From a virus, in the IMG/VR virus record IMGVR_UViG_3300005664_000056, positions 1 through 28,301 of that record: a stretch of DNA of 28,301 bases; one strand, given 5' to 3'. Below the pieces are notes generated by a model. That model ran no database searches. It saw only the letters and a list, made by a program, of their open reading frames with translations, and was not told the DNA's origin. The position numbers and the translations under genes are program-made. Below are positions 4,281-27,710 of the stretch, one piece after another. Each line of letters starts with the position of its first letter. The stretch's first letter is position 1.

Positions 4281-4918
4281 TAGCAGGCCACCCACATGAG
4301 GATTGGGATACCGTTCCCTTGTGAAACCCCACAGTAGTTGTTGCTTAGTCCGGTAAGGGCTGTGGCACGATTAACGACTCCCGTGATGTTCATCGTGCTG
4401 TTGGTTTGGTAGGTGGTGCCAACATACACACTGACGGTGCAGGTTGATCCGACCGAAACGCTGGCGTCGTCTATCGTCCCGATCACAATAGGCGATCCGA
4501 CCCACCGAGCAATCGTGACGCTAGCCCCGGCAGCAGTGGTGTTGCCGCCCAGAATCTCAAAGCCATAGTAGTTCTTTGAGAGCGTGTGCTGGTTGTGCTT
4601 TGGCCCCCACACCTCTTTGATAGCAGGAGTCCCCGTGTCGTACCGCACGTAGTTAGGTTGGGCCAAGTCAGTGGCCAGGCCCTCATCCGAGGTGCCCAGG
4701 CCAATCGCAAAGGGGCCAGTAACCAGATACCCGTTCCAGTTGAAGTCGGTGTCGGCAGCGTTGGGCTTCCTGACCGTGTAGAGCATCTCATTGTTGGAGG
4801 CCGTCACGGTAGTGATCAGCACCACGGAGAACGGGGGAATCACGGCACCACTGGCGTTCTTCACCCGCAGCGGCCACCGGTCCCGTACCATTTGCCAGCG
4901 TTGGTCTAGTGGATTCAT
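4280..4918 (-). CDS. beta-rich minor tail protein
   Basis: A 212-residue protein. The N-terminal half (VKNASGAVIPPFSVVLIT, then VRKPNAADTDFNWNGYLVTGP) is beta-rich and ends in a WGPK...HTL...YYGFEILGG block; a Thr/Ser-rich beta tail follows. The arrangement resembles small structural proteins seen next to tail hub genes in environmental phages, but no enzymatic residues are apparent. The start overlaps the upstream TGA (ATGA) and the stop overlaps the next ATG, so it is co-translated with the hub-like gene before it and the Cys-rich gene after it. A fibre-tip or baseplate accessory role is inferred from position. Confidence 0.7.
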   Translation of the reverse strand: MNPLDQRWQMVRDRWPLRVKNASGAVIPPFSVVLITTVTASNNEMLYTVRKPNAADTDFNWNGYLVTGPFAIGLGTSDEGLATDLAQPNYVRYDTGTPAIKEVWGPKHNQHTLSKNYYGFEILGGNTTAAGASVTIARWVGSPIVIGTIDDASVSVGSTCTVSVYVGTTYQTNSTMNITGVVNRATALTGLSNNYCGVSQGNGIPILMWVAC

Positions 4919-7823: not shown

Positions 7824-8537
7824 TTATTTGCTAGTCGGTAGTTCGTTGTACGAGCCAGGCAGAGCCGGGAACTCGTAGTGCCAGGTGGTCCGGAAGAACT
7901 TAATCCCGGTCCCCTGCTGCGTACCACTGGAACGCCGAATCGACCGTCTATGAGTGTACTCGAAGGGGCTGAAGATCGGCGGGGATGGTTGGGGGTACGA
8001 AGAGAACCCTACCGCACTCCCGGTCTGGGAGTAGGTGAGCAAAGACGCCGAAGAGATCGGTTCGATGTAGGCCCCATAGATCGTGTTGGAAGCCACCCAG
8101 ATCGGGCCACCCGTGCCCCGCACCTCCACTGACTCGTCCCAGGAAACCAGGTCATCCTCAGAGGCTGAATAAACGCCCTGGAGGGTAACGCTGAAGGTCC
8201 GTGTCGTGGCCAGTTGCTCGGGGCCACCGGATGGGAACGACTTGTTAACTACCCGGACCCCAGACAGGCACTCTCCCGTATTCCGTAGCTCGTGAGCCAG
8301 AACCCCGCCTACCGTATAGGTGAAGTCCTTGCCGTCCGTGTAAGCGTTGAATACTTCATTGGCGTGCTGGACGATGGTGGACGTGTCTGTGTAGATCAGC
8401 TCGCCCGAGATCTGCATGGTGCGGGTCTGGGTCAGGCTACGGTTACGCGGCGAGTACCGAGTGCGGTAATCGACCATCACGAGGTTGACCTCGTTGTCGG
8501 CATGAGCATACCCGCCATAGACCGCCACGGATGCCAT
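7824..8537 (-). CDS. tail protein, distal-tail-like
   Basis: A 237-residue beta-rich protein. The N-terminal MASVAVYGGYAHADNEVNLVMVDY and the later RTFSVTLQGVYSASEDDLVSWDESVEV look like a tail-associated beta-sandwich. The C-terminal third is Ser/Pro-rich (SSYPQPSPPIFSPF) and ends in RTTWHYEFPALP. The start overlaps the stop of the acidic gene before it (TAATG). Its position between the tail tube and the hub suits a distal tail or tail-completion protein. No definite family is recognised. Confidence 0.6.
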   Translation of the reverse strand: MASVAVYGGYAHADNEVNLVMVDYRTRYSPRNRSLTQTRTMQISGELIYTDTSTIVQHANEVFNAYTDGKDFTYTVGGVLAHELRNTGECLSGVRVVNKSFPSGGPEQLATTRTFSVTLQGVYSASEDDLVSWDESVEVRGTGGPIWVASNTIYGAYIEPISSASLLTYSQTGSAVGFSSYPQPSPPIFSPFEYTHRRSIRRSSGTQQGTGIKFFRTTWHYEFPALPGSYNELPTSK

Positions 8538-9214
8538 TAGAGCCTCTCGATTTCTAGGCGACGTTGCAGGTCACTGAGAGCACGGGCGTGATCCTTCAGG
8601 AAGTCGAACTGGGCCGTGTGTAGCTGGGTATTGGCTTCAGCGAATTGGTGCAGGCCATCTTCACCACCACCCGCATCAGAGCCACCATCTCCACCACTAA
8701 ACCCACCATCCGCTCCACCTGCCGCATTAAAGGCCTCGACCTGATTCCCAAAGGCCTCGATTCCACCATCGTCCTCACCGAGTCCCTCTAAGTCCGGTGC
8801 TGCTTCCTCCGTATGCGTTTCCGTAACGGGAATGTCCTCGGGAGGCACATCCTCGGAGAAGCCAACTGAATCGTCAGGACCTGCCTGCTCAGGCTCAAAG
8901 GGAATGTCAGGTTGAGAGCCGCCATCAGCCGGGGTCGTAGTATCAAGTTTAGGATCACCTCCCTCAGACCCAACCGGCTGTGGCGGCTCATCGGAATCGT
9001 CTGACTCCTTCGCTAGCTTACCTAGAGTGCTGACTGTGTTATCGAGATCACTAAGATCTTGTCCTTCATCATCGCCCTCAGGGAGCCCTTCCTCGGCGTC
9101 AGGTTGACCCGGGGCTTTCTCTTCAACAGGACCATTCGGACCCCATTCCGCAGCCTTATCGTAACCAGCGTCACTGTCTGGCCCCTTTGTCGGAATGTCA
9201 TCTTCTTGGTCCAT
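8537..9214 (-). CDS. strongly acidic disordered protein with C-terminal helix
   Basis: A 225-residue protein of which the first 185 or so are Asp/Glu/Gly/Pro-rich and almost certainly disordered (DDEGQDLSDLD, GGEDG...). The last 40 residues (QFAEANTQLHTAQFDFLKDHARALSDLQRRLEIERL) are predicted helical or coiled-coil. Acidic disordered proteins in this position, after the tail tube, can be assembly chaperones or tube-lumen proteins. A tape-measure protein would normally lie here. It starts four bases after the tube gene's stop without an SD, so translation is probably by reinitiation. The function is inferred from position only. Confidence 0.7.
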   Translation of the reverse strand: MDQEDDIPTKGPDSDAGYDKAAEWGPNGPVEEKAPGQPDAEEGLPEGDDEGQDLSDLDNTVSTLGKLAKESDDSDEPPQPVGSEGGDPKLDTTTPADGGSQPDIPFEPEQAGPDDSVGFSEDVPPEDIPVTETHTEEAAPDLEGLGEDDGGIEAFGNQVEAFNAAGGADGGFSGGDGGSDAGGGEDGLHQFAEANTQLHTAQFDFLKDHARALSDLQRRLEIERL

Positions 9215-11881: not shown

Positions 11882-12550
11882 TTAGGTCAGGACGGGGTGA
11901 CCATGCAGGCGGAAGATGAACTGGCCAGCCGTGTAAGCCGCAGCCGTGTCACCCGTGCCTGCGGTGAGGTAGAAGTAGTGATCAGCGGTAAGGCTTTGGA
12001 CCAAATTCTGGACCACAACACCTGCTACCGCATCGCCATTGTTAACACCGTAAGTCGTGCCACCGGCACCGTCATAGGCCAGTGACCCCGACGAATTGAC
12101 CACGATGTTCACGTCATTGTCACCACCGGTCGGGGTCTCTACGCAGATCTGCTCGATCTTGAAGATCACACCGTTCGTAGCAACCACGTTGCGACCAATG
12201 TAGGCATTGCCGCCCGCCGACAGGCCAATGACGTCATTGGCGGTAGCCACGCTCGCCAAGCCTTGGAGATCGACTTTAATCTCAGTGATGATAATACCGT
12301 TCTCGGTGTAGCGGTACGTGGCTGGGGCCACGCCCGTACCAATCGCACCGGCACCGTGTTCGGCGGTCACCGCCACGCCAGTTCGGCCAACTACACCGGT
12401 CATGAACTTACTAGCGTTCAGGGTCACGGCTTTCGACGCCTCGGCAGTTCCGAGAGTAGCCACGTTGTAGATGTTGAGGAACTCGGTCGCGGCCCCTTGA
12501 TTAGCAAGACCTTTAGCGAGGTGGCTGGTGAAATTACGAGAGAACGACAT
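11882..12550 (-). CDS. capsid-associated / decoration-like structural protein
   Basis: A 222-residue protein, Gly/Ala/Val/Thr-rich and mostly beta. The N-terminus (MSFSRNFTSHLAKGLANQGAATEFLNIYNVATLG) precedes several strand-turn repeats, and the C-terminus has the block LTADHYFYLTAGTGDTAAAYTAGQFIFRLHGHP. The composition is that of a virion surface or decoration protein. The ATG at 12550 is chosen because the SD and hairpin lie directly before it; the frame opens further upstream at 12586 without such a signal. It lies between the basic 12592-13329 gene and the connector. The exact role is unknown. Confidence 0.65.
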   Translation of the reverse strand: MSFSRNFTSHLAKGLANQGAATEFLNIYNVATLGTAEASKAVTLNASKFMTGVVGRTGVAVTAEHGAGAIGTGVAPATYRYTENGIIITEIKVDLQGLASVATANDVIGLSAGGNAYIGRNVVATNGVIFKIEQICVETPTGGDNDVNIVVNSSGSLAYDGAGGTTYGVNNGDAVAGVVVQNLVQSLTADHYFYLTAGTGDTAAAYTAGQFIFRLHGHPVLT

Positions 12551-12554
12551 GGGT

Positions 12555-12568
12555 CGGAATCCTTTCCG
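12555..12568 (-). promoter_or_regulatory. perfect GGA-loop hairpin at RBS of the 12550 gene
   Basis: Minus strand CGGAA-AGGA-TTCCG: a perfect five-pair stem with AGGA in a four-base loop, four bases before the ATG. The AAGGA core matches ANGGA. Confidence 0.6.
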
Positions 12569-12591
12569 GTGGTGACAGCAGCCCAAGCCGC

Positions 12592-13329
12592 TTAAACAGG
12601 CGACTTAACCTTGGCTGGCTTTGTCTTGCTGGGACCGTGCTTCGCCAAAACCATAGCTCGTAGCTCTGACTTTGACTTAGACTTCAGCTCCGGATTGGAT
12701 CGTACCATATCCACGGCCTTACGCCTAACCAGATCCGCTCCCATGGGGGTGCAGTTCTCGTCAGCTAATTCATCCCGTTCAGGCTCTCGGTGGTTGGTAC
12801 TGACCGCCCCATCGCAGGCCCAGCCCCGCTTCTCACAGAGATTCTTGATATAACTCCGGGCACCACCAAATGGCACTACCGCCTCGGGGTCCCCTACGAA
12901 CCGGGCCAGCTCGGGCATGTACTCGTCATTGGGTTTCAGGTTCACCCCTCGCTTGGCGAGCTGCTGCTTGACGTTGTTGATGTAGGTGTTGTTCTTTTTG
13001 CTACTGGGGTCTCCGAAGACTTCGTGCCAGGGCTTTCTTCCGGCCCAGAAGGTGTCGGTGGTTTGGAGTCCGGGAGGGGCTTGAAGACATAACATCGTCG
13101 CCCATCTATCACCACACTTCTTATCCTCCCTGCGGATTCGCACATAGATCGCCCCTCTCGTGACGTGGCCACCGCACTCCACGACTAGCTCCCCGCAGCG
13201 TGCCAGAACATCCGAGCTGACATTGGGGAACTCCTTGAGGATCTCCTCGGGCATTGGCGGGTACACCACCAAGTCCACATAGGGTCGCCAGTCTTCGTTG
13301 TCTTTGAGCCAGACATCTATCCGTTTCAT
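12592..13329 (-). CDS. hypothetical protein with basic C-terminus, downstream of portal
   Basis: A 245-residue protein. The N-terminal 110 residues are mixed alpha/beta (MKRIDVWLKDNEDWRPYVDLVVYPPMPEEIL...) with several cysteines. The C-terminal 50 residues are Lys-rich (KSKSKSELRAMVLAKHGPSKTKPAKVKSPV) and probably bind nucleic acid or the capsid interior. Its start overlaps the portal stop (ATGA), so it is translated together with the portal. It is not a family I recognise. Capsid or connector association is inferred from position. Confidence 0.65.
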   Translation of the reverse strand: MKRIDVWLKDNEDWRPYVDLVVYPPMPEEILKEFPNVSSDVLARCGELVVECGGHVTRGAIYVRIRREDKKCGDRWATMLCLQAPPGLQTTDTFWAGRKPWHEVFGDPSSKKNNTYINNVKQQLAKRGVNLKPNDEYMPELARFVGDPEAVVPFGGARSYIKNLCEKRGWACDGAVSTNHREPERDELADENCTPMGADLVRRKAVDMVRSNPELKSKSKSELRAMVLAKHGPSKTKPAKVKSPV

Positions 13330-15755
13330 GCGGCTTTTCCTGGTTTGGGTTTCGTAGCAGCCATCTTCTTAGCCGTATCTACCTTAGCCTTCGACTGCTC
13401 TTTGGTGGTGTCGATCTTAGTCTTAGCCTGGGCCTTGGCAACAGCCACCTGAGTGGCACCCTGCTCCCGCTGCATCGCCATTTGCTGCTGACCCATCTGG
13501 ATCTTCTGGGCACCCTCAGCAGTCTTCACAGCCATATCCACCTGACCCTGCTCTTGCTGCATCTGGATGTTCTGCTGATGCTCCTGCTGAGCCATCTGCA
13601 TTTCCATCTTCTTCTCTTGGATCTTGAGCTGCATCTCCACCATTTTCATCTGGAGTTCAGCCTCCATCTTCTTCAGCTCCATCGCCATTTCCTGCTGGCT
13701 CTGTTGCTGGTCCATCTGCATCTTCTGTTGGTCCATGGCTCCCTTCATCTGGAGCTCCTGCTGCTTTAGGGCAGCGGGATTAGCTTGGGCCTCGGATTGG
13801 AGTTTGACGGCCTCCGCTTGCACCTTCTGAAGTTCCGCCTGCTGCATCTGCGTTTGAAGCTGTGCTTCCGGGCTGTTCTCGTCCTTAGGCTGGAAGAAGA
13901 GACCATCCAAGTCCATATCATGCAGCTCCCCATACTTCTTGAGGAGACCGTTGATCGGCTCCCAGTCACCCGTCAGCTCAGCACGCTTGCTGGCCTCGGG
14001 CAGGAATCGACCCATGAGTTCGTTGAGATCCGCAATGTCTCGGTCTCGGTTCGGACGGCGGACAGAGCTGGCGGCCACCTCATAGTGCATCTGCCGCATC
14101 ACGCTCTCGGCATCGGCGTTCTCGATGTGCTCCTTCCAGAGCATGGCACCGGCCTGACCTAGGAGCGGCACAACGTCGGGAGCCTTTACAAACAGCCAGG
14201 TGAGCATGGCCTCAACACCAGCAACTCGGCTTTGCCAGCCCACAACCTTCTTTTGCATATATTCTGGGCGAGCACTAACAGCCGATTTTCTAGCTTCCGT
14301 CGTTGACGCTGTGCGGTCTTGGGTGCCGTCTTCGTTTTGGCCATAGACGAAAGGGGTCATCCCCATCCTTTTATCGAAGTTGTTACTCAGGATATCCAGA
14401 ACCTGCCAGGAGTCTCGGTTGACCTCTTTGTTCTCAATGATTTGGATCATCTTCTTGACGTCATCCACCGAGCCGGGAGGCAGGGCGAATACATCCAAGT
14501 CGGCCCCGTCATCGAGGACCTTCTTGATGTCGTCATAGTACTGACCCAGGACCGCGTACATCTGGCGGCTAGACTGCCAGGTACGGTTCACCAGCCATGA
14601 GACGATGGCGTTCATGGCCTTCAGCTCACCCAAGGCGGGGGCCAAGGGGGCTATGGGGTAGGCACTTTCCGGATCGTCGTAGAAACGAAGGACTTCAACG
14701 GGCCAGCGGTCATCGGTCCAGAGCGGGACCGGCCACTCGAAGGACTGCCGCACTTCCTCCGACGTCGCTCCATTGCGGATCTTGTCTGCTGGGCAGTTGA
14801 GTGGGTAAGGGCAGTCTGGGCAGATCGCCAGATATGCATAGTCACCGACGGTCTCCTCTAGTTGATTCTTGATAATGCTGGGCATCCCGGTCATACGGGC
14901 CCCGGTGCCGAGCTTACTCCAGACCTCATACCACACGATCAGGTCACTGGTCTTACCGGCCTTCCGGTCGGCACCACCGTCCCCTGAGCTACTAGCCAAC
15001 TCCGCATAGTGCCACGAGGACTCTAGGGTGGCCTTGTTCTTTAGGGAGCCGGGTGGCAGCTTGAACCGCCGCTCGACTTGCCAGTGGGCCTCCGTGTGGC
15101 GGAGAGCAATCCACTTGGCTTCCTGCATGGTCTTGAAATCAGGGTCGATGATCAGGTCACCAGGCGGCTTCCGGAAGCAACCAGTGAGCGTTCTCTCAGA
15201 GCCGGGCATCGAGTAGGGGGCCGGCCACATACAGCCCATGCCAGTGAGCATAGCGTCGAGAACAGCCAGTTCGTTATGACCTTCGAGTCCATTGCCAGGC
15301 ATTTCCCGAGGCGTGTAATTCAGCCACCCCGTCAGGAGCTGAGCCACTACCTTGTCCTTCGATGCCTCTTGGGCTGCCATCTGCATGACAACCTGATACA
15401 TCTGGGGATCTGGGAAGGCGTCCTGAGGAAGCTCTAAGATCTTCTTCGGGGTGACTGTCCGATGCGGGACATCCCACAAGAGGTTCGGGCCAAAGACAGC
15501 CACGAACTCAAAAGCCTTGTTGATGGTGACTCGGAACCGGGGAGCCTTCACGCCCCTCCAGAACTTCTTGGAGTAGAGCGGGTCCCACATGGCGGCAGCC
15601 GACTTCGAGTAGAACATCATGCACTCGTCGGCCACCTCCTTCCACTTCTTGCGGGGCTGAGACGTCAGGGCCATCTCGATCTTAGAAAGCCAGCCCGAGC
15701 ACAACGGACGTAGGAATTGGTAGTCCGTGTCTTCGATATCGCCTAGATCGAGCAT
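13326..15755 (-). CDS. portal protein with Met/Gln-rich C-terminal coiled coil
   Basis: An 809-residue protein, the longest in the window. Residues 1 to about 620 have the helical and beta layout of large podovirus/P22-like portals, with an N-terminal helical region (WKEVADECMMFYSKSAAAMWDPL), a wing region rich in Trp and Pro, and a helical stem (DRDIADLNELMGRFLPEASKRAELTG). Residues of about 630-809 form a long Gln/Met/Lys coiled coil (repeated QMQ, MQM, KKMEAEL) ending in a Lys/Ala-rich tail, which could reach into the capsid or tail channel. The start is inside a GGA-loop hairpin. Proximity to the large terminase supports the portal call. Confidence 0.82.
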   Translation of the reverse strand: MLDLGDIEDTDYQFLRPLCSGWLSKIEMALTSQPRKKWKEVADECMMFYSKSAAAMWDPLYSKKFWRGVKAPRFRVTINKAFEFVAVFGPNLLWDVPHRTVTPKKILELPQDAFPDPQMYQVVMQMAAQEASKDKVVAQLLTGWLNYTPREMPGNGLEGHNELAVLDAMLTGMGCMWPAPYSMPGSERTLTGCFRKPPGDLIIDPDFKTMQEAKWIALRHTEAHWQVERRFKLPPGSLKNKATLESSWHYAELASSSGDGGADRKAGKTSDLIVWYEVWSKLGTGARMTGMPSIIKNQLEETVGDYAYLAICPDCPYPLNCPADKIRNGATSEEVRQSFEWPVPLWTDDRWPVEVLRFYDDPESAYPIAPLAPALGELKAMNAIVSWLVNRTWQSSRQMYAVLGQYYDDIKKVLDDGADLDVFALPPGSVDDVKKMIQIIENKEVNRDSWQVLDILSNNFDKRMGMTPFVYGQNEDGTQDRTASTTEARKSAVSARPEYMQKKVVGWQSRVAGVEAMLTWLFVKAPDVVPLLGQAGAMLWKEHIENADAESVMRQMHYEVAASSVRRPNRDRDIADLNELMGRFLPEASKRAELTGDWEPINGLLKKYGELHDMDLDGLFFQPKDENSPEAQLQTQMQQAELQKVQAEAVKLQSEAQANPAALKQQELQMKGAMDQQKMQMDQQQSQQEMAMELKKMEAELQMKMVEMQLKIQEKKMEMQMAQQEHQQNIQMQQEQGQVDMAVKTAEGAQKIQMGQQQMAMQREQGATQVAVAKAQAKTKIDTTKEQSKAKVDTAKKMAATKPKPGKAA

Positions 15756-15763
15756 CCTTGCTC
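15750..15763 (-). promoter_or_regulatory. GGA-loop hairpin containing the portal start codon
   Basis: Minus strand GAGCA-AGGA-TGCTC: a perfect five-pair stem; the last loop base is the A of the ATG at 15755. The string CAAGGATG equals the CARGGAUG centre of the CsrA consensus. The likely SD, AGGGGG, lies just upstream of the hairpin. Confidence 0.6.
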
Positions 15764-15784
15764 ACCCCCTAAAAGAAGTACATT

Positions 15785-15800
15785 CGGCCTGCGTAGGCCG
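15785..15800 (-). repeat. CGGCCT-N4-AGGCCG leader hairpin, copy C (portal leader)
   Basis: On the minus strand CGGCCTACGCAGGCCG, preceded by AAAA and followed by AAT, has the same stem and flanks as the csrA and 25242 leaders. It lies between the stop of the upstream gene (15808) and the portal start, 29 bases before the ATG. Confidence 0.65.
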
Positions 15801-15807
15801 TTTTGAC

Positions 15808-16272
15808 CTAGACTTCAACAGTGGCCTTCTTCTTGGCCTTGCCTAGTTTCTCCTCGATGAGGATGGCTCGCTCTTCCGCCTTCTTAGCAAAGGCCTTAGC
15901 GGCATCCTTCGCCTTCTGTTCGGCTTCGATCAGGGCGTTCTCCCGTTTAGCCAACTCCGCTTCATGCACTTCATAGGCATCAGCCGGGGCCTCACGGGGA
16001 AAGCTCCACGAACCGCTGTTCTTGGTGGTCTCGTTGGGCTTGTCGTGAATCCAGTGGGTAGTGTGGTGACAGCCCGCCTTGTGCTGGAGCATCCCATTGA
16101 ACGGGTAGACAGTGACCTTAATGCGGCCAGGTCCTTCTACCTCCGATACGATAGCGGGAGCGGCGTTCCGCTTGTCCCCATAGGCGTGGTAGATAACGCC
16201 ATCACTGACTTTCGGGGTCGGCTGGAGCCTCTGTCGCTGTTCCGCTAACTGGTTCCACACTTCGCTGCTCAT
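15808..16272 (-). CDS. hypothetical protein between large terminase and portal
   Basis: A 154-residue protein. The first 90 residues are beta-rich and include VYPFNGMLQHKAGCHHTTHW, with a Cys-His-His cluster that might bind metal. The last 55 residues (EAELAKRENALIEAEQKAKDAAKAFAKKAEERAILIEEKLGKAKKKA) form a clear coiled coil. The start at 16272 has an SD (AGGAAAGGA) and a hairpin; an opening at 16305 does not. Small proteins of this layout often lie between terminase and portal in environmental phages. It ends in TAG. Confidence 0.7.
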   Translation of the reverse strand: MSSEVWNQLAEQRQRLQPTPKVSDGVIYHAYGDKRNAAPAIVSEVEGPGRIKVTVYPFNGMLQHKAGCHHTTHWIHDKPNETTKNSGSWSFPREAPADAYEVHEAELAKRENALIEAEQKAKDAAKAFAKKAEERAILIEEKLGKAKKKATVEV

Positions 16273-16273
16273 C

Positions 16274-16292
16274 GGATTCCTTTCCTGAAACC
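16274..16292 (-). promoter_or_regulatory. imperfect GGA-loop hairpin at RBS of the 16272 gene
   Basis: Minus strand GGTTTC-AGGAAAG-GAATCC: five of six positions pair, with one T-T mismatch, and the SD lies in a seven-base loop. Confidence 0.3.
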
Positions 16293-16365
16293 TCGTATCC
16301 TTCACTCATGGCGTAAATGATGAAGGGTGTTAAAAACTGAAAGTCTTCTTCTAGCCAGATTGCAC

Positions 16366-18132
16366 TCATACTGACTGTCCCGGCCCCATGTTCACGTAAC
16401 CGTCGGTCTCTTTCTCTAGCTCAGCCTTAAGCTGCTTGGCAGCGTGGTAGGCCAGGCTCCCCGTACTGCGATAGCTATCCGGTGGAATATAAGCTATCCC
16501 GTCACGGAACCGACCATAAATATACTCGCTCAGGTACTCAACAGCCATTACGCAGTCGTACAGCCGCTCAGCCTGACCGTCATCCGTGGGCACCGGATTC
16601 CCTTCCGGGTCCTTCACCACTGCCTTCCGGAAGGCCCGGATCTCTTTCATGGTGGACGGGCAGCGGTAGGAGAACATCAGCCGGGGCCAGCCATTCTCGG
16701 TTGGCTCCATGAGATCCCGAACCGTTCTCCGTCGCAGGGCCTTATCGTTACAGCCCCGCATGAACCCACTATTCGTGGTTCTGCTAATGAGCCCCCTAGT
16801 CCTAAACTCTCGCTCGTAGGCTGCGAAGACGGTGACGTCCGAGGCTACGGTAGTCTGCCGGCCGATCATCTGATCCATGATGAAGGCTTCGAAGCGGAAC
16901 CCACCTACCCGATCCTTGACGGCATCAGCCAGCATGGCGGGGGTGTACTTCCGGACGATGATCTCTTCTTCAATGATCAGGCGGTTCCCTAGGTCGAGCT
17001 CCTCGGGAGGCGGCACCACCCCAATCAGGCAGGCTGTCCGGGTATGGCTGGGGTCGATGACTAGGTACCGGGTCCAGTGCGGGGGGAACCGGGTCGGGTC
17101 ATTGGTCAGCATGTTGCAGAGCGTCTGGTGCGGATTCTCTGGCTTCTCGACTTGCTTAGGCCGGACCTCGTGGATCGCTGCCCCGAAGTTGTACATCTGC
17201 CGGCCGCTGATGAACGAACTGATATCGCCCTGGTTACGGTGGGCCTCGTCATCGTCATCGTCCATACGGGCCAGCATCTGCTGGATACCCTTACGGTCGG
17301 AGTAGGGATTGTCGGAGCCAATGAGCCGGAAGACTTCGATAGGCTTCTCGGGGTTGTCCTTCTCCCGCTCCGCCCGGTCGAGCGTCTTGATCAGGGCCTC
17401 GTTCGCTACCTGGGGCCACACGGACCACAGGAACCAGCCGCACGTTGTCGCGAGACGGTCCTGCCATTCCTTTAAGAACGAGCTCTTCTCAATGTCTTCG
17501 TCTATCCAGATCCCGTCTACCGCATCACCCTTCTTCGGGGCGTCGCCGGTACTCGGATAGGCACAAATCGTCACCCCATTCTTGAGACGGACTGACCGGA
17601 AGACGTGGCCCGCCGCACTCTCCATGTGCCAGGAGCCGGGCTCGATCATGTGCTCCCCAAAGAGAGGCGGTGATAGCTCACTGTCGTTGTATCGCTCCCG
17701 GTCATAGTTCGGGTTATAGGCCCGCCACTTGTGAGTCTGGAGGTCCTGGATGATCCGGAAGTTGGCACCGTCCCCGAGGCCAGGAGAGAATAGGCGGTGA
17801 TAGAGGGTTTGGCCAATGTGATTGACGTCATACCCAATCACCCAATACAGACCAGGGTTGCGTTTAGATGGGGCACGGAAGCGGAGCGGGATCTTAGTTC
17901 CGTCTTGACGGGTAATAGGGATGCCAAGAATGCGGCTTCCCAGCTCTAAAACCACACTCAACGTTTTTCCTGACCGCTTCCCACCAATTGTGAGGACTTC
18001 AGACGCCGGAGATTCGTGTACGGGGAGCTGGAACTCAGTAGGACGGTAGACCTCCAGTGGATGCTTCTCGTACTGTTCCAGGGCATGGATGCCCTTTTGG
18101 ATATCAGCGAGTTGGTGCTTAAGGTTGGCCAT
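16366..18132 (-). CDS. terL: terminase large subunit (packaging ATPase and nuclease)
   Basis: A 588-residue protein. Walker A is GGKRSGKT (residues 50-57). Walker B is IWIDED (about 208-213), with D211 and the catalytic E212. The nuclease domain begins near residue 355 with LVIDPSHT (D360), continues with AFIMDQ (D420), and ends with a third acidic site in RLYDCVMAVEYL near 560. It powers DNA translocation through the portal and cuts the concatemer. Its start overlaps the small-terminase stop (TAATG). The length is normal for the family and all expected motifs are present, so it should be active. Confidence 0.95.
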   Translation of the reverse strand: MANLKHQLADIQKGIHALEQYEKHPLEVYRPTEFQLPVHESPASEVLTIGGKRSGKTLSVVLELGSRILGIPITRQDGTKIPLRFRAPSKRNPGLYWVIGYDVNHIGQTLYHRLFSPGLGDGANFRIIQDLQTHKWRAYNPNYDRERYNDSELSPPLFGEHMIEPGSWHMESAAGHVFRSVRLKNGVTICAYPSTGDAPKKGDAVDGIWIDEDIEKSSFLKEWQDRLATTCGWFLWSVWPQVANEALIKTLDRAEREKDNPEKPIEVFRLIGSDNPYSDRKGIQQMLARMDDDDDEAHRNQGDISSFISGRQMYNFGAAIHEVRPKQVEKPENPHQTLCNMLTNDPTRFPPHWTRYLVIDPSHTRTACLIGVVPPPEELDLGNRLIIEEEIIVRKYTPAMLADAVKDRVGGFRFEAFIMDQMIGRQTTVASDVTVFAAYEREFRTRGLISRTTNSGFMRGCNDKALRRRTVRDLMEPTENGWPRLMFSYRCPSTMKEIRAFRKAVVKDPEGNPVPTDDGQAERLYDCVMAVEYLSEYIYGRFRDGIAYIPPDSYRSTGSLAYHAAKQLKAELEKETDGYVNMGPGQSV

Positions 18133-18674
18133 TACTCTAAGTTCTGGGCCGAGCCCGTGATGGTGCGGATAGCTTCCTTCTTGGCGTCTGGTGTTTCCAT
18201 CTTCGCCATGATGGCTGCCATCTTCAGGGTGAGTCGGGCCTCGATCTCCGCCTTCGTGAGGTTGTTCCAGTCCTGCTCCACCTGAGTGCTCTCCACCTTA
18301 GCGTGGATACTCATGAGCTTAGCCACGAATGAGAGGGCCTGGGACTTCTTGCCGGTAGCGGCGAGGTCCTTCACCCACTGAGAGAGATCCTTGCAGAGCG
18401 GCTCCACTCCCCCGTACTCGTCGTAGAACCCATCCACGATCTGAGCCAACGGCTCTAGCGTCTTGCCGTTGCCGTACTTAGCAATGACTTGGGCTACCTT
18501 CTGGCCAGCCATCGCCACCTTCTGGTCGTAGATGGCCATCGACGCTTCGAGGGGCAGGCACTTATTGCACCGCAGGTCTAACGGCAGGCTGTTGTAGCAA
18601 CTAGCCGGGAGCCAGGTCTTGCACTGCGGACAAAAGAGCTGCTTCTCTTCTGGGTTTACTTGGGAATCGCCCAT
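18132..18674 (-). CDS. terS: probable terminase small subunit with N-terminal zinc ribbon
   Basis: A 180-residue protein directly upstream of, and overlapping, the large terminase gene. Residues 15-39 carry CPQC...CNKC in a 'CxxCxxWxPxxxxYxx...RCNxC' zinc ribbon. The rest is helical (Ala/Lys-rich), as expected of a small terminase oligomerisation core. The zinc ribbon closely resembles that of the phage's HNH endonuclease at 21154-21753. The TerS call rests on position and helical content, since no standard helix-turn-helix is obvious. The SD is in a GGA-loop hairpin just before the ATG. Confidence 0.6.
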   Translation of the reverse strand: MGDSQVNPEEKQLFCPQCKTWLPASCYNSLPLDLRCNKCLPLEASMAIYDQKVAMAGQKVAQVIAKYGNGKTLEPLAQIVDGFYDEYGGVEPLCKDLSQWVKDLAATGKKSQALSFVAKLMSIHAKVESTQVEQDWNNLTKAEIEARLTLKMAAIMAKMETPDAKKEAIRTITGSAQNLE

Positions 18675-20326
18675 ACATCTCCAGATGCTCTGAGTTTGTA
18701 ACCGTTGTTCTCAGCGAACTCATCGACCATCCGACGGAGCTTAGGAGTCTCATACCCCAGTCCCGCCAGCAAGCCGCCTTCCGTGATGTGCTTGAACCAG
18801 GTCTCCAGCTTCTCTTCCGTCAGAGACCGCTCGATAAACACCAAGTCCAGGTGATGCTGGTCTTCAGGATAAGGGAACTTTCTGCCAGACAGGTCGGCCA
18901 TTACCCGTCCTGATTCTAGCTCGTGCTGAAAGCTCTTCGCAAACTGCTCGGCCGGCTCGGTGCTGAACTGGTAGGTCAGCGTAGAGTCGAGGGCGTACAG
19001 GTGCGATCCTTCCGGGAGTCCTTCCAGGATGGCGGCAGCCGATTGACCGGAGCCGGCGTGAGCTACGGCCACTTCAATGGGCCCATCGTTCTTCTCAACC
19101 AGCCAGTTCGTGAGGGCGGCGATGTTGTCGATGGACTCGTTGCTGATTTCGGTAGGGATAGCAGCTACCTTATAGCCACCGACAATACGGTGCTTGAGGG
19201 CGTGGCCGTTCTGCTTCTCTAGGGCGATAGCCACTGAGTTCTCAACACCAGCCATCTCGGCGTGGGTATTCACCAAGGGCGGAGTGCCATTAGTCACTAT
19301 CGGCTCGTTGTCGAGCTTGACGTCGGCATACTGACTGCCGGTTTCCTTTTCTCGTTCCATGAGGACGCGAGCTTCTTCCAGATCTTCCGGGGAGAGATAG
19401 ACCTCATTCTGATCGTGACGCAGGGTCTGGCCCCGCCGACCGATATGGTCAGGTAGATTGCTGGTGTAGTCCACAATTCGCTTCTCGTCTTGGATTGACG
19501 TGTTGCAGTTCAGGGCCTCTCGCATCTCTTCGGCCACAATCTCCAGAGTAGCCACCCGGGGCTTACCAACCCGCTTTGGCTTGTTGTGCAGAGCCCAGGA
19601 GTTGCAAGCAGCGAAGCAGACGTCGTAACCCTTCTTGATCTTCCAGTACACGCTCAGGTTGCGGGTGGCGAAGCAGTCTTCTGTTCCCCGCTTCTCACAC
19701 TTGTCCTTGTCGTGCTCGTAGTCGAAGAACGGCTTAGGGGGGCCATCGAAGATGTTCGTGGTGAATAGGCAGCAACCCGTAGGCAGCGACGACATCGGGT
19801 GAATGCCAGCCAGCTTCTCAGCCTCACGGCGAGTCAGCATCTCTTGCTTCCAGCCCGAGTCCAGGCCGTTCGTCTCTACGTTGGTCCACTGGAAGAGATA
19901 CGGCACCTCACCACCATCACTGATGCCAGGACGGTTGATCGGGTGCGGGGGAGGACCGCAGTAGGGAGCCGCAATGACAGTCGGGATGCCCTGCTTCAGC
20001 CGGTCAAAGGCGAAGGTGAAGGCCTCGTCCAAGAACAGCTTGGCAGAGGGGTCCTTGCCGTAGTAGGCATCTGGCTCGTTGTCCGAGTCCAGCATCAGCA
20101 GCATATCGCAGCCGGCTTCCTTGGCCTCACGTACGGCCAGATTCCTGGTCATATACACCGGGGTATCCGAGTAGATTCCCACTACCACCGTCTCGACCCG
20201 TGGGTCATTGAGCAGTCGGTTGTAGGCCTTACCCCACCAGACCATGAGTTCAGGGATGACCGAAGACACTCCGCCGTTACCACCGTACGCATAGATGGCA
20301 ACTGCGATCCGTACCGTGCTTTTCAT
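18656..20326 (-). CDS. glycosyltransferase fused to a Rossmann methyltransferase-like domain
   Basis: A 556-residue protein with two domains. Residues 1-260 form a GT-A type glycosyltransferase: strands up to the DSD motif (MLMLDSDNEPD, D80-D82), the metal and nucleotide-sugar binding site, and a Cys-rich middle. Residues about 385-556 resemble a class I methyltransferase: VAVAHAGSGQSAAAILEGLPEGS, then LYALDS, then LDLVFIERSLTEEKLETWFKHITEGGLLAGLGY, as in Methyltransf_24 proteins, though the usual DG(D/N)H is replaced by ERS. It could glycosylate a virion or host surface component. It lies between the capsid terminator and the terminase genes and overlaps terS. Confidence 0.72.
   Translation of the reverse strand: MKSTVRIAVAIYAYGGNGGVSSVIPELMVWWGKAYNRLLNDPRVETVVVGIYSDTPVYMTRNLAVREAKEAGCDMLLMLDSDNEPDAYYGKDPSAKLFLDEAFTFAFDRLKQGIPTVIAAPYCGPPPHPINRPGISDGGEVPYLFQWTNVETNGLDSGWKQEMLTRREAEKLAGIHPMSSLPTGCCLFTTNIFDGPPKPFFDYEHDKDKCEKRGTEDCFATRNLSVYWKIKKGYDVCFAACNSWALHNKPKRVGKPRVATLEIVAEEMREALNCNTSIQDEKRIVDYTSNLPDHIGRRGQTLRHDQNEVYLSPEDLEEARVLMEREKETGSQYADVKLDNEPIVTNGTPPLVNTHAEMAGVENSVAIALEKQNGHALKHRIVGGYKVAAIPTEISNESIDNIAALTNWLVEKNDGPIEVAVAHAGSGQSAAAILEGLPEGSHLYALDSTLTYQFSTEPAEQFAKSFQHELESGRVMADLSGRKFPYPEDQHHLDLVFIERSLTEEKLETWFKHITEGGLLAGLGYETPKLRRMVDEFAENNGYKLRASGDVWAIPK
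18676..18687 (-). promoter_or_regulatory. GGA-loop hairpin at RBS of the small terminase gene
   Basis: Minus strand CATC-TGGA-GATG: four pairs, loop TGGA with the SD core, one base before the ATG at 18674. Confidence 0.45.
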
Positions 20327-21153: not shown

Positions 21154-21753
21154 TCAAAGTCCTGATTGAATGGGGTTCTTAACCAACGGGCCGTTTAATA
21201 TCCGTGAGGCCCACACCATCATTTCTTCATCGGACATCACACTCTTCATCCAATTAGCTGCCTTACAAACCAGCCGCACATTGGACTCCGTGTAACCAAT
21301 CGCATTGTCTATGCGGTCGATTGTCACGTTCGTGTAAACGCCCTTCCCTTGGCCTTGGATGTGTGTCATCGGAATCCCGGTTATTGCACACTTACCGTCC
21401 TGCTCTCTCCACCTACGCATGAGCAGCTCGTGTGTCACCTCTGATTCCGCAGCCATCAACCTCCGCCTCACGGTGTTTCTTCGCTGGCCAGACGTGGCTT
21501 TATGGGCCCGCCAAAGACATCGAAGATAAGCATCCGTGTTTTCAGTTTTGTAAGTTCTGGTTCTCTTCGTGTTGCATGAGTTGCATCTAGTTTCTCTGCC
21601 ATTTGCTGTGTGCCTGGCTGGATAAAAGTTCTCCAGTGGGACCCACAGATGACAGCTAGAGCACTCTTGCTTTCCGTCGATCACCAGCTTCTTTGGCCTA
21701 CCGGCTTTTTTGCCGTTAGGCACATACGATAATTCACTACTGCTTGTACCCAT
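21154..21753 (-). CDS. HNH homing-type endonuclease
   Basis: A 199-residue protein. It opens with an AT-hook-like KAGRPKKL (about 16-23), continues with a zinc ribbon CSSCHLWVPLENFYP...RCNSC (about 31-60), and has a C-terminal HNH-type region: DGKCAITGIPMTH, then NVTIDRIDNAIGYTESNVRLVCKAANWMKS. Free-standing HNH endonucleases insert beside conserved phage genes and cut alleles lacking the insert. Here the gene sits between the major capsid and its partner. The ATG at 21753 is preferred over an opening at 21804 because of the strong AGGAGG, itself in a hairpin. Confidence 0.85.
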   Translation of the reverse strand: MGTSSSELSYVPNGKKAGRPKKLVIDGKQECSSCHLWVPLENFYPARHTANGRETRCNSCNTKRTRTYKTENTDAYLRCLWRAHKATSGQRRNTVRRRLMAAESEVTHELLMRRWREQDGKCAITGIPMTHIQGQGKGVYTNVTIDRIDNAIGYTESNVRLVCKAANWMKSVMSDEEMMVWASRILNGPLVKNPIQSGL

Positions 21754-21755
21754 AA

Positions 21756-21769
21756 AACCTCCTGAGGTT
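21756..21769 (-). promoter_or_regulatory. hairpin presenting the AGGAGG of the HNH gene
   Basis: Minus strand AACCT-CAGG-AGGTT: five pairs, or four pairs with loop TCAGGA. The SD spans loop and stem, two bases before the ATG at 21753. Confidence 0.45.
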
Positions 21770-21816
21770 GCGACAAGTGTATTCCACAAGTCGTTAGCCA
21801 GCAAGAGGATATCGTG

Positions 21817-22929
21817 TCAAGCATAATTTTTGAGTTTGGCCAAAAACTTAGGACTTAAACTGCACTGGCCGTAGAATCCCGAGGCCCACAGAGCGGCAAA
21901 GCCAGCCCGAGGATCTTCGGTGGGTCCACGCATCCAGAACAGTTCCGGCATCCAGGAGGCGATCTCCACGGTGCTGGTGTTGACCATGTAGCCGGTGTTG
22001 GCCGGGCAATCGAAGTCCGCACTGATCGTGCAACCGTCTTGGTTCAACACGTTGCCGGCGAAGCCCAGGTCATTGGCCGTCTTGGCGGGAACCGAGATTC
22101 GGCGGATGGCCTCTTCGTGGTTCTTGTAGGCCTGGAACAGGTTGGGAGCCAGGGAGCAGATCTCGGGCATTCCATCGTCGCCACCTTGGATGGTGAGCCA
22201 GGTGATGGTCTGACCGATCACACGCCAGCAGTTGTCCTCGAACGTGGTGGAGCCGGTGCCCCAGCCCGTGCTGGACCAGTTCACCAGTTTCGGTGAGAAG
22301 TAATCGTATTCCACATCGCCCTGTCCATCCGGCCAGTCGTTGGCCAGCGTGGCATTGGGGGAAGTCGTGAGGTTGGCACTCCACGTTCCGCCTTGATTGG
22401 CGAGAGCCGTCGAGAGACCCGCATAGGTCGTGCTCGGTTCAGCGATGCGGTCACCAGCAGCAGGAGCCGTTCGCTCCGTGAGGCAGGTTTCCAAACCATA
22501 GATGGCGTTCTCACGGCCAGCGGTGCCACCCGCCTTGTACACTTCCGAAGCCAGACCGTTCTGGAGCTTCTTCATGATGCGGCCTTGCTTGGTCTTGAAC
22601 AGATTGATGAGGGCTTCCTCACCGCTATTCATCGCCTTCTGCTTCATGGTGATCGAGTCCGAGACTTGATAACCCGAAACAGGGAGCACCGCCTGTTGGA
22701 AGGCTTGGTGGTTCGAGAAGTCGATCATCGAGCCATCGCCGTGCTGGTGCATGGTGGGCTGCGAGAATTCGATCTGCCAGCGGAATTCATAGCCGCTGTT
22801 GTTGTAGGTGATCCGGCCCTTCTTCTTGAGCATCGCCAAGAAGAGACGACGGCGGATCGTCATATCCGAAGCACCCTTCATGTAGGCGGGCTTCGTGGTA
22901 TTGATTACGCCAATCCATTCGTCAGACAT
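21817..22929 (-). CDS. major capsid protein
   Basis: A 370-residue protein immediately after the scaffold gene. The N-terminus (IGVINTTKPAYMKGASDMTIRRRLFLAMLKKKGRI) is helical. The middle (VLPVSGYQVSDSITMKQKAMNSGEEALINLFKTKQGRIMKKLQNGLASEVYKAGG) has the long spine-helix pattern of HK97-fold capsid proteins. Trp/Thr-rich strands follow (TGWGTGSTTFEDNCWRVIGQTITWLTIQGG), and then CSLAPNLFQAYKNHEEAIRRI. The order scaffold then capsid, and the size, support the call. The leader has three hairpins, one with the SD in its loop. Confidence 0.82.
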   Translation of the reverse strand: MSDEWIGVINTTKPAYMKGASDMTIRRRLFLAMLKKKGRITYNNSGYEFRWQIEFSQPTMHQHGDGSMIDFSNHQAFQQAVLPVSGYQVSDSITMKQKAMNSGEEALINLFKTKQGRIMKKLQNGLASEVYKAGGTAGRENAIYGLETCLTERTAPAAGDRIAEPSTTYAGLSTALANQGGTWSANLTTSPNATLANDWPDGQGDVEYDYFSPKLVNWSSTGWGTGSTTFEDNCWRVIGQTITWLTIQGGDDGMPEICSLAPNLFQAYKNHEEAIRRISVPAKTANDLGFAGNVLNQDGCTISADFDCPANTGYMVNTSTVEIASWMPELFWMRGPTEDPRAGFAALWASGFYGQCSLSPKFLAKLKNYA

Positions 22930-22973: not shown

Positions 22974-23034
22974 GTCAGCAAATCTCTGACGCTAGAAGGG
23001 CGTGATGCCTATTCACTGGGTGTATCCATACACC
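22974..23034 (-). promoter_or_regulatory. two further hairpins in the major capsid leader
   Basis: Minus strand GGTGTA-TGGA-TACACC (23019-23034) is a perfect six-pair hairpin with TGGA in the loop (ATGGA with the closing base), starting at the scaffold stop codon. GTCAG-AGATTTG-CTGAC (22974-22990) follows. The first could be a second CsrA-type site, 87 bases from the one at the RBS. Confidence 0.45.
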
Positions 23035-23474
23035 TACGCTGCCGCACCGGTCTTATGCTTGCGGAAAGCGTTGGTAAACATGTTCTCTAACTCGCCCTCA
23101 TTGCTGGGGACGAAGCCACTCCCGTCGTCGGTGTAGCTGCCTTGATTGGCTGAGGGGCTGGCCTTCCGCCGCATCTCATCAATGAAGGACTCTTGTTTTG
23201 ATTTGGGGGCCGCAGAGGGAGGGGCGTCCGTGCCCTTGATGAACTTTCCATGCTCATCCCTCGCACGACCTGCATCGGTTGGCGTAACAACCGGTGTTGG
23301 ACTGGTAGGCTGCGTGTTCACGCCTGATAACTTCAAGGCGTAAGCCGCTAGCTTCTGGGGGTCGTTTATACCCTGTTGGCGGAGTTCCGCAACAGTCTGC
23401 CGAAACTTCTCGCCGTCAGCCGTCAGTCGGCCATCGGGTTGATAGAGCCAAGCTTTGTGCTCGTCCGAGAACTT
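23034..23474 (-). CDS. scaffold C-terminal part, in frame beyond an amber codon
   Basis: After the TAG at 23475-23477 the same frame stays open for 146 codons to a second TAG. It begins KFSDEHKAWLYQPDGRLTADG and runs through EKFRQTVAELRQQGINDPQKLAAYALKLSG into a polar linker and a helical, basic end (MFTNAFRKHKTG). It reads as a normal scaffold C-terminus, whose basic helix usually contacts the capsid protein. No ATG with an SD is present in this frame near the amber; a TTG at 23336 lacks an RBS. Separate translation therefore looks unlikely. Confidence 0.55.
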   Translation of the reverse strand, partial: KFSDEHKAWLYQPDGRLTADGEKFRQTVAELRQQGINDPQKLAAYALKLSGVNTQPTSPTPVVTPTDAGRARDEHGKFIKGTDAPPSAAPKSKQESFIDEMRRKASPSANQGSYTDDGSGFVPSNEGELENMFTNAFRKHKTGAAA

Positions 23475-24167
23475 CTACTCGAAGGACTGGGCCTGGGTCT
23501 GTTGTTCGTAGGATTGGAACTGACTCTGGATCTTCTCTTCCAGCATTCGCTGGAACTGCCGCTCCAAGACGGGGCTGATGCCCTTGTAGATGTTCTGGTA
23601 GAAGTTCCCTTCGAACAGCTTCTGCATCTGTTCGCGTTGGGCAACGTGGGCCTGGTTCAGATCGTTGAGAACCGGCAGGGCCATGGCTTCGAAGCCGGGC
23701 TTGGCCTGATAGAGGCCGTTGTCACCCAGTTCTACAATGCCCTGATTGATCAGGAACTTCGCTTGTTCGTTAATCTGTGGTGCTTGCCACAAGGAGTTGA
23801 AATGGGAGTCGGGATCGAATTCGTCACTGGCCTCCTCGCTGGCTACATCATCGGAGCTACGATTGCCACGATTGGCACCGCCATCCTTTGTGCCACTTAC
23901 AAGCGATGAGCGGCCAAGGTCAGCGTAGGCCCGGTCTTGCATGTACCGGTCGAGGAGGGCTTCCGCAAAGGAGCTCTCGTCCTCGATCCCATCGAGTGGG
24001 AGTCCGGCTGCTTGGGCTCGGGCATACAGCCCGCTACCAGAGAATGAGGAGTGTTGCTCGGGAGCAGCTTGTTCTGGGGCTGCTTCAGGTGTGGCCTCAG
24101 CCACGGGAGATTCCGGTTCCGCTTCCGGAGTAGGGACGCCACCAAAGATGTCTTCGAGCTCAGGCAT
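23475..24167 (-). CDS. capsid scaffold protein, N-terminal part ending at amber
   Basis: A 230-residue protein and the first gene of the late block. The N-terminus is Pro/Glu/Ala-rich and disordered (TPEAEPESPVAEATPEAAPEQ). The second half is helical (LVEL..., QAHVAQREQMQKLFEGNFYQNIYKGISPVLERQFQRMLEEKIQSQFQSYEQQTQAQSFE), typical of scaffolds. It lies immediately before the major capsid gene. The frame continues beyond the TAG for a further 146 codons (see next feature). The start has a GGA-loop hairpin directly before it and a consensus-like promoter upstream. Confidence 0.75.
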   Translation of the reverse strand: MPELEDIFGGVPTPEAEPESPVAEATPEAAPEQAAPEQHSSFSGSGLYARAQAAGLPLDGIEDESSFAEALLDRYMQDRAYADLGRSSLVSGTKDGGANRGNRSSDDVASEEASDEFDPDSHFNSLWQAPQINEQAKFLINQGIVELGDNGLYQAKPGFEAMALPVLNDLNQAHVAQREQMQKLFEGNFYQNIYKGISPVLERQFQRMLEEKIQSQFQSYEQQTQAQSFE

Positions 24168-25748: not shown

Positions 25749-26614
25749 CTAAGGCTCGGTTTAAGCCCAAGGTGGGATACGTTCCCTCGGTGTACGTCTA
25801 TACGATGCGGACCCCGCACAGTCTGTGCTTCCGGGATATGGAGCTACGGGCCAAGAGCTACCTGACGATGCTCCGCTTTAATAAGCACCCCGTAAAAGAA
25901 GCCAAAGAGGTGAAGCGGTTTCGGGAGGCCCTGTCCCTGAAAGCGGCACGGCGTTCGATCTTGGACCGGGAGGTAGGCGGGGACCTACTGAAGAACATTA
26001 TGCAGCCAGGGGACTATCTGATTGTGAATTCCCTGACAGATGCGTTCATGAAGGAGGAGGACCTGGTGACGGTGATGAACCGGTTCCAGGAGCGGGAGCA
26101 GCACCTACACGTGTTGGACTTCTATGGTGCAGCAGTAGATTGCAGCAGCCCCTCGGGCCAGATCCTCCTCGGTAATATGCGGATGATCCATCAATACAAT
26201 CGGGACTATCGGCGGAAGGTCACGGACAGCGTGCGGACGCGGGCACGGGCAATAACGCGGCTCGCGGGCGGGCGGACGCCTTTCTTCTGTGAGGCCATCG
26301 AGAGTCATGGAGAGATCCGTCTGATCCTCAAGAGCTGGGCCATCCCCGCCGCCGAAGTCATTGGGAAGTACCGGCACAGCGACAACCCCAGTGAGCGGGT
26401 GAAGTACCCGGTCATTGCGGGCCAGCTAACCAAGGCAGGGCTCGGGGCGGGGTGGAAGAAGGACCCGAAGAGCCTGGACGAGCTGTACCACTTCTGGCGT
26501 GCCTGGGTGGCTGCCGGGAGGCCTGACGTCAATACACTGAAGTTCCCCGACTTTATTTACGAGTACCGCTCCCTCATGGCCCGAGGCCTAGTCAATGAAA
26601 ACAATCACGTTTGA
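25745..26614 (+). CDS. degenerate serine-recombinase-fold protein
   Basis: A 289-residue protein. The block LLKNIMQPGDYLIVNSLTDAFMKEEDLVTVMNRFQEREQHLHVLDFYGAAVDCSSPSGQILLGNMRMIHQYNRDYRRKVTDSVRTRARA matches the resolvase/invertase core: 'GD.lvv..lDR..R...dl', then 'vDt.tp.G.l....a...e..r....e..r...'. Catalytic positions are altered: the D-R-x-x-R element reads D-A-F-M-K, and the N-terminal Y-x-R-x-S reads Y-T-M-R-T. It is therefore probably not a recombinase in the usual sense. It overlaps its neighbours by 4 and 20 bases. The C-terminus (about 205-289) is unfamiliar, possibly DNA-binding. Confidence 0.6.
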   Translation: MTKARFKPKVGYVPSVYVYTMRTPHSLCFRDMELRAKSYLTMLRFNKHPVKEAKEVKRFREALSLKAARRSILDREVGGDLLKNIMQPGDYLIVNSLTDAFMKEEDLVTVMNRFQEREQHLHVLDFYGAAVDCSSPSGQILLGNMRMIHQYNRDYRRKVTDSVRTRARAITRLAGGRTPFFCEAIESHGEIRLILKSWAIPAAEVIGKYRHSDNPSERVKYPVIAGQLTKAGLGAGWKKDPKSLDELYHFWRAWVAAGRPDVNTLKFPDFIYEYRSLMARGLVNENNHV

Positions 26615-27263
26615 GGTCGATGACAAGAAGCACAACCTGTTCATCCTGGACGACTACCTCAGCATGGACTGTGCCAAGAACATCATTACGGGCAAGAGCT
26701 ACCCATTCCCGGAGTGGTTTGGCAAGCAGCACCAGCAGCCCAAGGTGGTGATCGACATTGGCGGCCACGTCGGGGAGTTCGCTGCCATGGCCCGCATTAA
26801 CTGGCCCAAAGCAGAGATCCACGTCTTCGAGCCCAACCCGGAAGTCATCCCGGTCCTTAAGCTGAACGCCGAGATCTACGACTTCAAGATCTACCAGATG
26901 GCAGTCTCGGATAAGGGCGGCACCACCGATCTGTGCATTAGTGGGTACGGATCTGTGGCCAACTCCATTGTGGATCGGCCCAACCAGACCGGGGAGAAAG
27001 TCACGGTCAACGTGGCGGACGCCAAGGACCTGATGCGGCTGAAGCCCAACGTCCTGAAGGTGGATGCCGAGGGAGTGGAGGTGCAGATCCTCGGGCGGAT
27101 GGACCTACCTAGCATCGAGCTGATCTACCTAGAGTTCCACTCCGAGGGGGACCGCCTGACCATCGAGCAGATGCTGCGTCCCACCCATTCCCTATTCCAC
27201 GCCAACATTGGCCACAAAGACCAAGGAGAACTGATGTATGTCCGCAGAAAGACCAACCTGTAA
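26595..27263 (+). CDS. FkbM-family SAM-dependent methyltransferase
   Basis: A 222-residue protein. Motif I is VVIDIGGHVGEF (51-62), followed by the acidic FEPNPE (78-83) that holds the SAM ribose. The FkbM signature VLKVDAEGVEVQILGRM and the strand IELIYLEFH follow (about 153-180). FkbM enzymes O-methylate sugars or other metabolites. It starts inside the end of the recombinase-like gene, so the three genes from 25242 form one translational unit. A role in modifying a glycan or phage surface is inferred, and the fused glycosyltransferase at 18656 might supply the substrate. Confidence 0.85.
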   Translation: MKTITFEVDDKKHNLFILDDYLSMDCAKNIITGKSYPFPEWFGKQHQQPKVVIDIGGHVGEFAAMARINWPKAEIHVFEPNPEVIPVLKLNAEIYDFKIYQMAVSDKGGTTDLCISGYGSVANSIVDRPNQTGEKVTVNVADAKDLMRLKPNVLKVDAEGVEVQILGRMDLPSIELIYLEFHSEGDRLTIEQMLRPTHSLFHANIGHKDQGELMYVRRKTNL

Positions 27264-27504
27264 GAGCTGTATCTATTGGGATGGCGGATACTGCCGCAGC
27301 CAGTCGCCGAAGCAGAAGGACGGAGAGGCGGCCTGGCCGTACTCCCAGCCAACTGATTGGTGTGGCGAGCACCAGGACTTCATCAAGTGGATGCACGGCT
27401 TAAAAGAAGTCAACTTACTCACAGGCGGAAAGGCTTTGGTGCAAACATGCGAGTCCGGTTCGTCGGCGGCCCCTGGCACAATCGACTCCAAGACACCGAC
27501 CTAG
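27238..27504 (+). CDS. small Cys-rich protein
   Basis: An 88-residue protein with CKSCIYWDGGYCRS and, further on, DWCGEHQDF: a CxxC...C...C pattern typical of small zinc-binding proteins in phage accessory regions. The second half is Gly/Ser/Thr-rich and low in signal. The ATG at 27238 has AAGGAG nine bases upstream and lies inside the end of the methyltransferase gene. No function is known. Confidence 0.7.
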   Translation: MSAERPTCKSCIYWDGGYCRSQSPKQKDGEAAWPYSQPTDWCGEHQDFIKWMHGLKEVNLLTGGKALVQTCESGSSAAPGTIDSKTPT

Positions 27505-27710
27505 GCCCGGTCTGGCAAGTGATGAGAGAGGGTAAGGGCGGAGCCGGAAACCGGGAGAAGTACCACCTCCACCGGTTCCGCACCTCACGCGGCACCCGCT
27601 ACGTCCAATACATCCACGAGAGCTTACTAGCCAACAACGGCAAACCCGACCCCTGTGCTTACAAGGAGCGATTCAAGAAATGGAACTTGTCTATCTCATC
27701 TTTGCCCTGA
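27447..27710 (+). CDS. small protein with 'VRFVGGPW' motif
   Basis: An 87-residue basic protein starting MRVRFVGGPWHNRLQD, a beginning shared by many small phage proteins of unknown function. The middle (KYHLHRFRTSRGTRYVQYIH) is basic and beta-rich. The frame is open from 27357, but the ATG at 27447 fits the family start. It overlaps the Cys-rich gene before it by 58 bases in a different frame. Confidence 0.6.
   Translation: MRVRFVGGPWHNRLQDTDLGPVWQVMREGKGGAGNREKYHLHRFRTSRGTRYVQYIHESLLANNGKPDPCAYKERFKKWNLSISSLP

Follow-up and report, generated by a model that had tools for sequence, protein, structure and literature searches.

Introduction

Amber (TAG) alleles of essential phage genes are known mainly from laboratory mutants on suppressor hosts. 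In the phages that use code 15, which include crAss-like phages and phAss-1, TAG is read as glutamine; in phAss-1, 41 ORFs contain TAG and the genome encodes three suppressor tRNAs (PMC10607447). The scaffolding protein of P22 (gp8) has a C-terminal portion that forms a helix-loop-helix and a coat-binding domain that forms a helix-turn-helix (PMC3185693, PMC12005531).

Here we analyse a putative head scaffold gene containing a single in-frame TAG, in a window that comprises an entire linear viral record of 28,301 bases. The gene resembles ordinary amber alleles in carrying one change from a sense codon to TAG, with the gene and the other comparable genes otherwise intact, but unlike the laboratory alleles it is known only from a metagenomic consensus. 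As in code 15 phages, a structural gene contains TAG within its reading frame, here at a position where three of nine relatives encode glutamine, but the window differs from those phages in that there is just one such codon, TAG also serves as a terminator, and no suppressor tRNA was seen in the window or in ten relatives’ records. Like P22 gp8, the putative scaffold precedes the capsid gene and is predicted, at low confidence, to be mostly helical, with a poorly ordered N-terminal tail and a recurring helical C-terminal tail, which by analogy with P22 may bind the coat protein. Unlike gp8, it shows no detectable sequence relationship with any named family or any scaffold of solved structure, and contains an internal TAG.

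The interruption most probably stems from one isolated base change that created a nonsense codon within an ordinary, single-product scaffold gene, representing either a recent and probably defective allele or an error in the metagenome consensus.

Results

A single amber codon divides a putative scaffold gene

The reading frame bears out the initial annotation, which had described 230 codons running to a TAG at 23475-23477, another 146 in frame to a second TAG, and the context GAG TAG AAG; the strand, which it left unstated, is the minus strand (Table 1). Past the internal TAG, the 146 codons contain neither a second stop nor a change of frame, such that the change, if real, would be recent given the lack of any further lesion. 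The G+C content at third codon positions is similar in the first (0.66) and second (0.65) parts.

Table 1. Coordinates of the interrupted gene and of the neighbouring head genes in the window.
Feature	Coordinates	Strand	Details
Putative scaffold gene	23034..24167	-	Single in-frame TAG at codon 231; terminal TAG 23034-23036
Scaffold gene, first part	23475..24167	-	ATG at 24167, 230 codons, then TAG
Internal TAG	23475..23477	-	Context GAG TAG AAG; sense codon in relatives
Scaffold gene, second part	23037..23474	-	146 codons, no near start; homologous to second half of relatives’ continuous protein
Major head (capsid) protein gene	21817..22929	-	Next after scaffold; intact; phrog_9953, E 5.7e-22
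Likely portal gene	15755-13326		Head-tail adaptor match phrog_332, E 4.5e-7

The second part was described at the outset as lacking a start preceded by a Shine-Dalgarno sequence, and this holds: ATG, GTG and TTG are absent in frame from the first 46 codons past the internal TAG, the earliest being a TTG at codon 278, followed by a GTG at codon 283 and an ATG at codon 332, and no clear Shine-Dalgarno sequence was evident by eye in the 20 bases before each of these starts. A CTG is present in frame at codon 248. Re-initiation past the TAG is therefore unlikely, with the nearest of these starts 47 codons on.

The gene probably encodes the phage head scaffold, judging from its position directly upstream of the major capsid gene, which is the same in the window and in all nine relatives, and from a mostly helical, low-confidence structure prediction. 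Searches of PHROGs, Pfam and PDB sequences matched no named scaffold family or solved structure, and one of eight members searched matched phrog_17946, for which no function is given. Elsewhere in the window, the likely portal gene also has a Pfam SU10_portal match below the cut-off, and the plus strand carries Resolvase-like and FkbM-methyltransferase-like genes.

Relatives encode the scaffold as one uninterrupted protein

The 146 codons past the TAG, searched alone, match two related loci (L009, E 6e-42; L008, E 7e-31) and are collinear with the second half of a continuous protein, so the scaffold-like continuation pointed out in the initial annotation is not a chance resemblance. Three contigs encode capsid proteins 81% or 76% identical to that of the window, two of which are identical over their shared stretch, and in both of the distinct contigs a single open frame precedes the capsid gene and matches the interrupted gene on either side of its TAG. 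The family was widened through a portal profile search and a broader capsid profile search, giving nine distinct relatives (L002, L003, L107, L110, L112, L113, L114, L121 and L123; L004 is an identical copy of L003), with L108 left out as a 6 kb contig without the scaffold stretch and L109 as the same contig as L121. The scaffold homologue directly upstream of the major capsid gene is uninterrupted in every one of the nine, and the relatives’ proteins end where the scaffold’s own terminal TAG lies. Their scaffolds are 26-46% identical to that of the window, which is too distant for a test of recent selection.

Hence the comparison with related phages proposed in the initial annotation finds the internal TAG in 0/9 relatives, all of which carry a sense codon. 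As the relatives are intact, a stop that arose by chance mutation, or else an error in the sequence, is favoured over a gene designed to make two products. One sense codon would then appear as TAG in this contig, in what is otherwise an ordinary head-scaffold gene. Were this a real allele, the conserved part after the TAG would be lost, and head assembly would probably fail unless the codon were suppressed; were it an error, the TAG would sit only in the metagenome consensus. A point mutation from a sense codon to amber and an error in the sequence were both among the options first listed, and either fits the sense codon of the intact relatives, the single lesion and the lack of damage to any other compared gene.

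The codon facing the TAG was counted from the conserved stretch after it, in an eight-row alignment built with glutamine substituted at the TAG. It is CAG in L002 and L113, CAA in L003, GAC in L107, AAC in L110, GGT in L112 and ACT in L114, and also AAC in L121 and L123, which were placed by motif. The relatives therefore have Gln, Asn, Asp, Gly or Thr at this site. The window protein has four more residues than its relatives near the TAG, and MAFFT places this gap a few residues before the TAG when glutamine is read there, but at the TAG itself when it is read as X; which codon exactly faces the TAG thus depends on anchoring the alignment on the sequence to its right. The first placement is favoured by the motifs KF....AWLY after the TAG and QS(F/Y)E before it in L002, and under both placements the relatives have no stop at the site. 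The DNA around the TAG closely matches that of the nearest relative by capsid (CAG ... GAG, then AAG TTC ... GAC).

An intron or intein at the TAG was rejected, as these four extra residues are all that the window protein adds where its two parts meet along the relatives’ sequence; nor did Rfam, at gathering scores, match anything in the window.

Several searches looked for further copies. The scaffold protein alone had no match among viral contigs; phage records had none to the scaffold and capsid DNA, or to the scaffold, capsid and portal proteins; plasmids had none to the capsid; and bacterial and archaeal genome contigs had none to the capsid and terminase profiles. An exact-match search with the DNA flanking the codon, allowing C or T at one place, retrieved zero near-identical sister contigs, in a search that very near records may escape.

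Conservation and predicted structure argue against a two-product gene

Pooled over seven relatives, identity to the window protein is 0.29 in the part preceding the TAG and 0.37 in the part following it, the latter comprising 0.45 over residues 232-280, 0.25 over the linker (281-320) and 0.36 over the tail (321-377). When nine relatives are pooled and the TAG is read as X, identity is 0.29 before and 0.35 after, with 0.42 over 232-280 and 0.34 over the tail. The part after the TAG thus appears somewhat better conserved than the part before it, the difference being modest. The better of two structure models, itself weak as a whole (mean pLDDT 62.9, pTM 0.25), predicts helices at 64-94, 160-185, 189-236 and 357-377, with a low-confidence tail.

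These data bear on programmed readthrough of the TAG, one of the options listed at the outset, which would yield two scaffolds at a set ratio, a short one of 230 aa and a long one. The codon is directly followed by a purine, a context that favours suppression in Escherichia coli, and no restart codon is near. The first and weaker model, based on four sequences (mean pLDDT 54.5), would permit a border, since its helix is broken at 224-228 and its residues 216-232 fall below 50; yet in the better model residue 231 is inside the helix at 189-236, and the blocks at 231-280 have pLDDT of 83-88, equal to those at 131-180. A short form would also be deprived of the better conserved part, and would be expected to lose function. 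With TAG lacking from all the relatives, and nested folds of 80 and 120 bases of RNA 3′ of the TAG resembling those of shuffled sequences (z -0.37 and -0.75), programmed readthrough is very improbable.

General recoding of TAG is very unlikely in the window

A genome-wide reading of TAG as an amino acid by the phage or its host, as in code 15, would accord with the glutamine opposite the TAG in some relatives. However, the 31 gene pieces surveyed contain 377 glutamine codons (256 CAG and 121 CAA) against one internal TAG, and TAG terminates six of 37 listed ORFs of our own selection, one being the scaffold gene itself, where the terminal TAG coincides with the end of the relatives’ protein. 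Moreover, a relative’s open frame could be aligned in the proper frame to 26 of the 37 ORFs, and the scaffold gene is the only one of these interrupted by a stop. The other 11, such as those at 1342-3042 (566 aa) and 8537-9214, had no relative’s row. Recoding of this kind is extremely unlikely, in agreement with the initial annotation, which had judged it unlikely because other genes end in TAG.

Some aligned rows did cross stops, each outside the bounds of a gene: at the gene’s own terminator for 18656-20326, and before the start for 12592-13329 and 26595-27263. At 27357-27710 a TGA was crossed before the start, and the homologous part begins further on. A decayed phage was ruled out, as the 25 other comparable genes are free of internal stops.

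A more specific alternative is that a real TAG is decoded by a CUA tRNA of the host, or of an unsequenced part of the phage, such that enough full-length scaffold is made. The variability of this position among relatives means that many inserted residues might be tolerated. The frame is fully kept beyond the TAG, and readthrough of the terminal TAG would append just six residues. Yet the 28.3 kb window is devoid of tRNA genes, and four of ten relatives’ records (L123’s not among them) have one tRNA each, namely Arg (tct), Pro (cgg) and His (gtg; two records of the same phage), none being a CUA-anticodon suppressor. The initial annotation’s suggestion of a host or phage amber suppressor was thus left without a tRNA in these records, while retaining some plausibility because six relatives’ records span 69-77 kb, so tRNA genes may be missing from the shorter window. 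Furthermore, certain recoded phages are noted to have no suppressor tRNA of their own, although the recoding phage in the same source uses TAG in 41 ORFs (PMC10607447), and the census of glutamine codons and terminators given above likewise counts against suppression here. Suppression is consequently an unlikely account. Less likely still is a TAG fixed in this population, alone among its relatives, and decoded by a suppressor, which would limit head assembly to suppressing hosts or times; were that so, head assembly in this phage would be tied to amber suppression by the host, a natural dependency.

We instead favour an isolated nonsense change or a consensus error, and infer that the TAG is neither a maintained recoding device nor under selection. 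A lone internal stop in one metagenomic contig needs both relatives and reads before a claim of recoding is made.

Lone stops are uncommon in viral contigs

The frequency of such interruptions was estimated in a P-SSP7-like family, in which 346 gene instances (134,173 codons, 80 loci) contained 0 lone in-frame stops, counting inside aligned pieces only; these loci are the best 80 of 583 that matched, and as close relatives perhaps include fewer broken copies. The implied bound is about 2e-5 lone stops per codon, or fewer than about 0.2 expected per 8,560 codons, the number counted in the window. By the rule of three, lone stops would be uncommon in the genes of other viral contigs, affecting at most about 1% of them. 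Given this control, neither errors nor nonsense alleles are frequent, and the TAG may have a special cause, of which suppression would be one. The TAG was, however, picked from a scan for oddities, and its rarity alone therefore says little about function.

In the scaffold phage’s own family, 109 gene instances (34,926 codons), drawn from loci that overlap in part because they lie on the same contigs, yielded a flagged stop only in one contig’s resolvase. Seen twice, via L008 and via L022, it lies 18 positions inside the edge of the alignment and just before the relative’s own open frame. A literature search, judged by titles and the openings of abstracts, found no report of a scaffold gene with a single internal amber codon, though such reports may exist.

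The P-SSP7-like control contained genes interrupted in other ways, by two group I introns and one frame change. Its own listing gave frame changes in gp10 (L039) and gp12 (L046), but overlooked L033, where gp10 is interrupted by an insert containing stops. Group I introns account for both gp10 interruptions, in L033 and in L039, and are located in the major capsid genes of these phages (L033 5099-5328 and L039 1326-1553; RF00028, E 7.9e-25 and 2.4e-28). Positions 4655-4708 of the L033 locus match the Glutamine-II riboswitch. The gp12 tail gene homologue at L046 2487-5506 shifts frame midway, with a gap of about 35 bases, which may be a frameshift, an error or a split gene.

Other elements in the window and its relatives

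The minus strand of the window carries an endonuclease VII/HNH-like ORF at 21154-21804 (phrog_1035, E 1.2e-26). It separates the capsid gene from the gene that follows and, past the capsid TGA, lies in the capsid reading frame. In all seven mapped relatives these two genes are about 60-120 bases apart, with no endonuclease ORF between them. This is probably a mobile endonuclease gene.

Insertions were also seen among the relatives’ packaging and portal genes. The terminase genes of L009 (~12448-12912) and L113 (~7199-7687) have in-frame inserts at the GGKRSGK motif that resemble small inteins; that of L113 has a weak Pfam Intein_splicing match (E 0.0025, below the cut-off), and that of L009 has none. 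The portal genes of L008 (~15620-16640) and L108 (~3274-4293) are interrupted ahead of a conserved cysteine by roughly 340 inserted codons; in L008 this insert is in frame, contains a LAGLIDADG_3 domain (E 3.8e-15) and appears intein-like.
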